In this document: piece after piece, positions 22,864-34,683 of the stretch
Layout: every line of letters starts with the position of its first letter
Position numbering within the stretch: the stretch's first letter is position 1
Origin: Methanopyrus sp. SNP6
Lineage (GTDB): Archaea; JAADCQ01; Methanopyri; Methanopyrales; Methanopyraceae
DNA: 64,000 nucleotides
Assembly: GCF_002201895.1 (NCBI RefSeq)
Contig: NZ_CP019436.1
Coordinates: forward strand, 1-64,000
Direction of reading: 5' to 3'
Program-made: the position numbers and the translations under genes
Notes under the pieces: model-generated
What the model saw: the letters and a program-made list of their open reading frames with translations, nothing else
The model's database searches: none
Told to the model about the DNA's origin: nothing

Positions 22864-22916
22864 TTCCCTCCCCCTCGCCCATCGTTAAGACTGACGTAAC
22901 GTTAGGAGGGATGCCA

Positions 22917-34462: not shown

Positions 34463-34476
34463 AAAATTTTAAGTAA
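34463..34476. promoter_or_regulatory. TATA element for tRNA-Glu (and perhaps the permease)
   Basis: AAAATTTTAAGTAA is an AT-rich block in GC-rich DNA about 40 bases before the tRNA 5' end. On the other strand it is 15-27 bases before the permease ATG. It could drive both. Confidence 0.45.
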
Positions 34477-34532
34477 CGAGGGTTCGGGCGCGGCCGTGGA
34501 CGAAGAGACGCCCCGGCGGTGTAGCCCGGTCA

Positions 34533-34563
34533 AGGGCCCGTGGGTGACCGCGGGCCCGCCGAT
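34533..34563 (+). other. D-loop intron of tRNA-Glu (non-canonical position)
   Basis: 31 bases. The splice structure is exon CGGT (34527-34530) paired with intron GCCG as the 4-bp central helix. The flanking bulges are CAA and ATA, and the internal stem is GGGCCCG/CGGGCCC. Cutting within the bulges (CA|A and AT|A) rejoins the D loop as AGCCCGGTCAA. The bulge-helix-bulge is exact, so removal by the archaeal splicing endonuclease is expected. Confidence 0.88.
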
Positions 34564-34580
34564 ATCATGCGGGACTTTCG

Positions 34581-34601
34581 AGGCCCGTCCGGGCCGGAGA
34601 C
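34581..34601 (+). other. Anticodon-loop intron of tRNA-Glu (position 37/38)
   Basis: 21 bases at the canonical site. The central helix is CTTT with GGAG, the bulges are CGA and ACA, and the intron hairpin is GGCCC/GGGCC closed by a 4-base loop. The outer helix is GGGA/TCCC of the anticodon stem. A textbook archaeal splicing motif. Confidence 0.92.
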
Positions 34602-34683
34602 ATCCCGCGACCCGGGTTCAAATCCCGGCCGGGGCACCAAACCCTAAATCGTTACGAGAAAACTAACGATCGGGGAGCGCTCC

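Follow-up and report, generated by a model that had tools for sequence, protein, structure and literature searches.

The locus studied here raises the question of how, and in what order, editing and splicing could turn an interrupted transcript with C at position 8 into a usable tRNA-Glu(UUC). It lies in the window, by which we mean the whole stretch of DNA that was analysed, namely the first 64 kb of the 1,421,521-base single-contig genome of Methanopyrus sp. SNP6 (G000). We consider it highly probable that the genome has two identical tRNA-Glu(UUC) genes, of which this locus is one, and that their precursor is trimmed, edited at C8 by CDAT8 and freed of both introns by an (alpha-beta)2 splicing endonuclease. 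The gene anatomy, its duplication, its conservation in the genus and the presence of both enzymes rest on the present analysis; the order of the steps and the weak cleavage are taken from reports on M. kandleri AV19.

Anatomy of the gene and its two introns

Removal of insertions of 31 and 21 nt yields a spliced tRNA-Glu(UUC) of 78 nt including CCA, which differs from the intronless tRNA-Glu of genome G009 at only 2 of 78 positions, position 8 (T to C) and the wobble position (C to T). The coordinates of the gene given in the preliminary description proved exact (Table 1), and its two insertions and its C8 of the Methanopyrus type, the latter read directly from the sequence, were confirmed. 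Neither ARAGORN nor Rfam at the gathering threshold reported a tRNA at 34510-34639 or anywhere else in the 64-kb window. A/T-rich stretches like the one listed as a possible promoter were also seen by eye upstream of other tRNA genes.

Table 1. Features of the tRNA-Glu(UUC) locus, with positions counted from the first base of the window.
Feature	Position	Strand	Basis or detail
Candidate archaeal promoter element (box A, TATA), A/T-rich	34463..34473	+	inferred by eye
tRNA-Glu(UUC) gene, CCA encoded	34510..34639	+	exons 34510-34532, 34564-34580, 34602-34639
C at tRNA position 8, U expected after editing	34517	+	direct reading; CDAT8 orthologue in same genome
D-loop intron of 31 nt at 20b/21, with relaxed (HBh') motif	34533..34563	+	helix reading
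Anticodon UUC	34577..34579	+	read directly from spliced sequence
21-nt canonical intron at 37/38, full BHB (hBHBh')	34581..34601	+	helix reading
3'-trailer palindrome CGTTA-N9-TAACG	34650..34668	+	exact match; published Methanopyrus tRNA-downstream motif

Exact 3-4-3 bulge-helix-bulge junctions had been ascribed to both introns, and this held for the anticodon intron but not for the one in the D loop. The former has the complete canonical hBHBh' architecture, with an outer helix of 7 bp, a central helix of 4 bp that includes two G-U pairs, and an inner helix of 5 bp. In the D-loop intron, a 5' bulge of 3 nt (CA^A) is combined with a central helix of 4 bp (CGGU/GCCG), formed by C17a-G18-G19-U20 and GCCG, and with an inner helix of 10 bp. 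Its outer helix, however, is of 0 bp in all eight copies considered below, and the 3' splice site thus lies inside an internal loop. A 5' bulge followed by a 4-bp H and an inner helix with no outer helix is the relaxed archaeal tRNA intron motif, the HBh' category as named in an excerpt of PMC6379350. Sequence alone leaves the splice register in the D loop uncertain by one base; among the four registers compared, 34533-34563 was the sole one to give a 4-bp central helix backed by an inner helix, and a splice site shifted to 21/22 gave 0/4 H pairs. When the letters of the D-loop intron were shuffled, a 4-bp central helix together with 7 bp or more of inner helix arose in 6 of 20000 trials.

The view that such an intron is unusual in a euryarchaeote was borne out. 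Non-canonical introns are described as almost exclusively crenarchaeal in an excerpt of PMC3218864, and part of PMC8450103 adds Thaumarchaeota to their hosts; M. kandleri and Methanothermobacter appear in a section of PMC4033280 among euryarchaea with multi-intron tRNAs. The D-loop intron resembles the crenarchaeal relaxed (HBh') introns in lying away from 37/38 and in being of the kind cut by (alpha-beta)2 endonucleases (PMC6379350, in excerpt), and differs from them in that its host is a euryarchaeote.

The proposed precursor fold of 43 pairs was paired in 258 of 258 cells across six distinct sequences vs. 33-54% when the fold was slid along them, a control that leans towards the proposed structure because the latter was drawn from one of the six. 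Covariation was thin, with 39 of the 43 pairs invariant and a single pair altered at both of its bases, a C-G of the anticodon-intron inner helix that is U-A in genome G004; the observed number of paired cells, number of double changes and covariation score were reached by 95 of 500 shuffles. Energy-based folding of the precursor does not favour the cloverleaf: at 37 C the predicted minimum-energy structure lies at -83.2 kcal/mol vs. -71.9 for the cloverleaf, and the outcome is alike at 85 and 100 C. The cause is pairing of the GC-rich D-loop with the T-arm, and the mature sequence is predicted to misfold in the same way. Energy-based folding was therefore of little use here.

Gene copies in the genome and the genus

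A second copy in the same genome (272738-272869; L052), found with a 132-base query, is identical to the window copy, and the identity extends at least 15 nt beyond CCA. Farther out, the flanks of the two copies look unrelated, with 71 of 132 alignment columns matching over the upstream 120 bases, 31/43 over the first 40 bases downstream and 73/148 over the next 120. The flanks of the window copy instead resemble those of one copy in G001, which we take as AV19 (98/123 upstream; 36/40 and 103/120 downstream), and the second copy resembles the other G001 copy upstream (94/124) and more weakly downstream (26/42 and 89/137). Over the 132-base query the window copy is 99 and 98% identical to the two G001 copies, which differ from each other at one base. 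Within the inner helix of the D-loop intron, it carries U at one position where AV19 has C (U-G instead of C-G); this U is found in both SNP6 copies and C in the six other copies of the genus. An anticodon intron of 26 nt is common to both copies of G002, vs. 21 nt in all others, and the flanks of one of these G002 copies matched none of the others above background. As the SNP6 copies are identical although their farther flanks look unrelated, and as the G002 copies both have the longer intron, the comparison, albeit drawn from few sites, suggests gene conversion between copies.

Across the genus, the query matched over at least 131 bases at eight places in five genomes, two each in G000, G001 and G002 and a single one in G003 and in G004, which are 89 and 94% complete. 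All eight full-length copies, and thus 5/5 genomes, kept C8 and the D-loop intron with its bulges and 4-bp central helix; the 3' sequence of the D-loop intron, CCGAT^A, was likewise the same in 8/8, and the length of this intron was 31 nt, or 34 in G004. Outside the genus, six matching stretches were inspected (L059, L063-L067), of which one was a tRNA-Asp gene and another a partial match resembling Asp, and none of the four tRNA-Glu genes read by eye (G005, G009 twice, G011) had a D-loop intron. Viral contigs scanned for one 24-base intron/exon stretch gave 0 matches.

In total, 34 tRNA genes were located in the SNP6 genome, comprising 31 Rfam matches plus a tRNA-Trp and the two tRNA-Glu genes, all three found by DNA similarity. 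The 31st Rfam match reads as Asp. A candidate intronless tRNA-Glu at 920195-920273 was identified by eye as tRNA-Asp(GUC), and a match at 359166-359216 reads by eye as tRNA-Trp with a long intron. Rfam and DNA similarity searches revealed no tRNA-Glu lacking the D-loop intron among the 34 genes, and reading by eye found no D-loop intron in any of the others. An excerpt of PMC5504354 gives 31 tRNAs for each of the 1.43-Mb strains SNP6 and KOL6, counts that may be undercounts: the published figure equals the number of Rfam matches, vs. the 34 located here, and automatic annotation can miss genes of this kind.

That both gene finders passed over the locus could be explained if it were a tRNA pseudogene or a decaying copy. 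Against this, however, stand its two identical copies, its conservation in the genus, the fact that no other tRNA-Glu was found in the genome, and the reads reported for the AV19 orthologues, edited at position 8 (PMC3695527), and we assign the pseudogene explanation a practically negligible probability. In AV19, the tRNA-Glu genes similarly occur in two copies with a canonical and a D-loop intron and C8. Prediction of the AV19 tRNA-Glu introns is credited to Marck and Grosjean 2003 in part of PMC3695527. The gene layout is therefore real but not new, having already been described and tested in a close relative.

The trailer palindrome is a motif already described downstream of tRNA genes in AV19, where about half of the total show similar patterns according to an excerpt of PMC5217627. 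In SNP6, it follows 33 of 34 tRNA genes with at most 2 mismatches in 10 vs. 73 of 6000 control windows, at an offset of 9-14 for 32 genes and of 23 for one (L018). Allowing at most one mismatch, it occurs at 101 places genome-wide vs. 12 for the reversed pattern; within the 64-kb window alone there was no enrichment, its three matches being equalled by 23 of 100 shuffles. One further occurrence of CGTTA-N9-TAACG lies at 22883-22901, where ARAGORN and Rfam give no tRNA gene. At most, these results extend the published motif.

Candidate enzymes for editing and splicing

C8 is present in 31 of the 34 tRNA genes, i.e., in most of them, as in the CDAT8 system; the script alone gave 30/34, and the register of the initiator Met, which it had placed 5 nt late, was corrected by eye. 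The candidate for CDAT8 is a 284-aa ORF whose frame spans the deaminase and THUMP matches at 1154044-1154817 and which aligns to 3G8Q with an E of 1.5e-168. We take 3G8Q, listed as a predicted THUMP RNA-binding protein, to be CDAT8. The ORF is thus predicted to encode a deaminase plus THUMP protein orthologous to it, and the genome would share with known CDAT8-dependent C8-to-U8 editing both the C8 tRNA genes and the enzyme. Another THUMP match, at 1182502, was dismissed as CDAT8 when its ORF was read by eye as a THUMP methyltransferase. ORFs aligning with CDAT8 were found in the other four genomes at 94 (G001), 68, 68 and 71% identity; in G003, where the PF00383 model for the deaminase found nothing at its threshold, CDAT8 is identified by a THUMP match, an ORF and the alignment. 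A scan of GTDB-based contigs with two short patterns, which may omit near records so that absence elsewhere is not proven, confirmed three relatives (one Methanopyri archaeon and two Euryarchaeota archaeon). The count of C8 genes, 31 of 34, differs from the 30 of 34 reported for AV19 (PMC3695527). Searches of the literature found no RNA data for SNP6, and C8 might conceivably stay unedited in this organism; however, given that its CDAT8 orthologue shares 94% identity with the G001 protein and that 31/34 of the tRNA genes located have C8 (one register by eye), we regard the lack of editing as extremely unlikely.

Two PF01974 endonuclease genes are present in each of the five genomes, and those of SNP6 match the two halves of chain 5X89 (E 7.5e-118 and 1.4e-112). 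One subunit has Y, H and K at the positions of the presumed catalytic triad, its H and K aligning with those of the crenarchaeal enzyme, and the other is without H and K. From its genes, the enzyme is predicted to be of the (alpha-beta)2 type, with one catalytic and one structural subunit encoded separately. For M. kandleri, an excerpt of PMC12397907 reports no more than limited activity on BHL-type pre-tRNAs, and an excerpt of PMC6379350 only slight cleavage in vitro of the relaxed intron in pre-tRNA-Glu(UUC); the M. kandleri enzyme reportedly does not have the crenarchaea-specific loop and is weak on relaxed introns (same excerpts).

Order of editing and splicing

The preliminary description treated the order of editing and splicing as an untouched question, but RNA-seq of AV19 already addresses it (PMC3695527): 3' processing is followed by 5' processing, then by modification and C-to-U editing, and finally by intron removal, the D-loop intron appearing to be removed later than the canonical one. 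For the two AV19 tRNA-Glu genes, 114 and 294 edited (U8) reads still contained the D-loop intron (PMC3695527), and editing can therefore precede its removal. Indeed, for each of the checks that had been proposed, on RNA, on endonuclease cleavage and on position 8, results of some form on the orthologue have already been reported.

The reads that retain the D-loop insertion (PMC3695527), the slight cleavage in vitro (PMC6379350, in excerpt) and the finding of no intronless tRNA-Glu among the 34 genes located by Rfam and DNA similarity could also be accommodated if the insertion were a retained expansion segment of a functional tRNA-Glu. We consider this very unlikely, as none of the eight copies departs from the others in its 5' bulge, its 4-bp H or its 3' CCGAT^A, and as removal of the insertion gives the exact D-loop of an intronless archaeal tRNA-Glu. 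Taking the insertion as an intron, and by analogy with AV19, we infer that the same step order and weak cleavage would apply in SNP6. The ends of the precursor would be trimmed, and CDAT8 would convert C8 to U8 by deamination; after that, the (alpha-beta)2 endonuclease would excise the canonical intron of the anticodon loop and, at a lower rate, the relaxed-motif intron of the D loop.

In mature tRNA, G18 and G19 contact the T-loop. Because the central helix occupies both residues, a precursor that retains the D-loop intron should form neither these contacts nor a normal elbow. Pairing of U8 with A14 would stay possible in such a precursor, which fits editing before splicing. It could further be imagined that the relaxed intron is kept genus-wide as a last-step gate, tying up G18 and G19 so that the elbow and charging or late modification await editing and canonical splicing, with a helper or prior modification enabling cleavage, but we think this unlikely and put it forward as speculation.

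A second Methanopyrus genome and three more assemblies from the genus thus show the gene layout of a tRNA needing editing and two splicing events. Since no intron-free tRNA-Glu was found, the cell appears to depend on the removal of an intron for which only slight cleavage in vitro is reported with the endonuclease of a relative.
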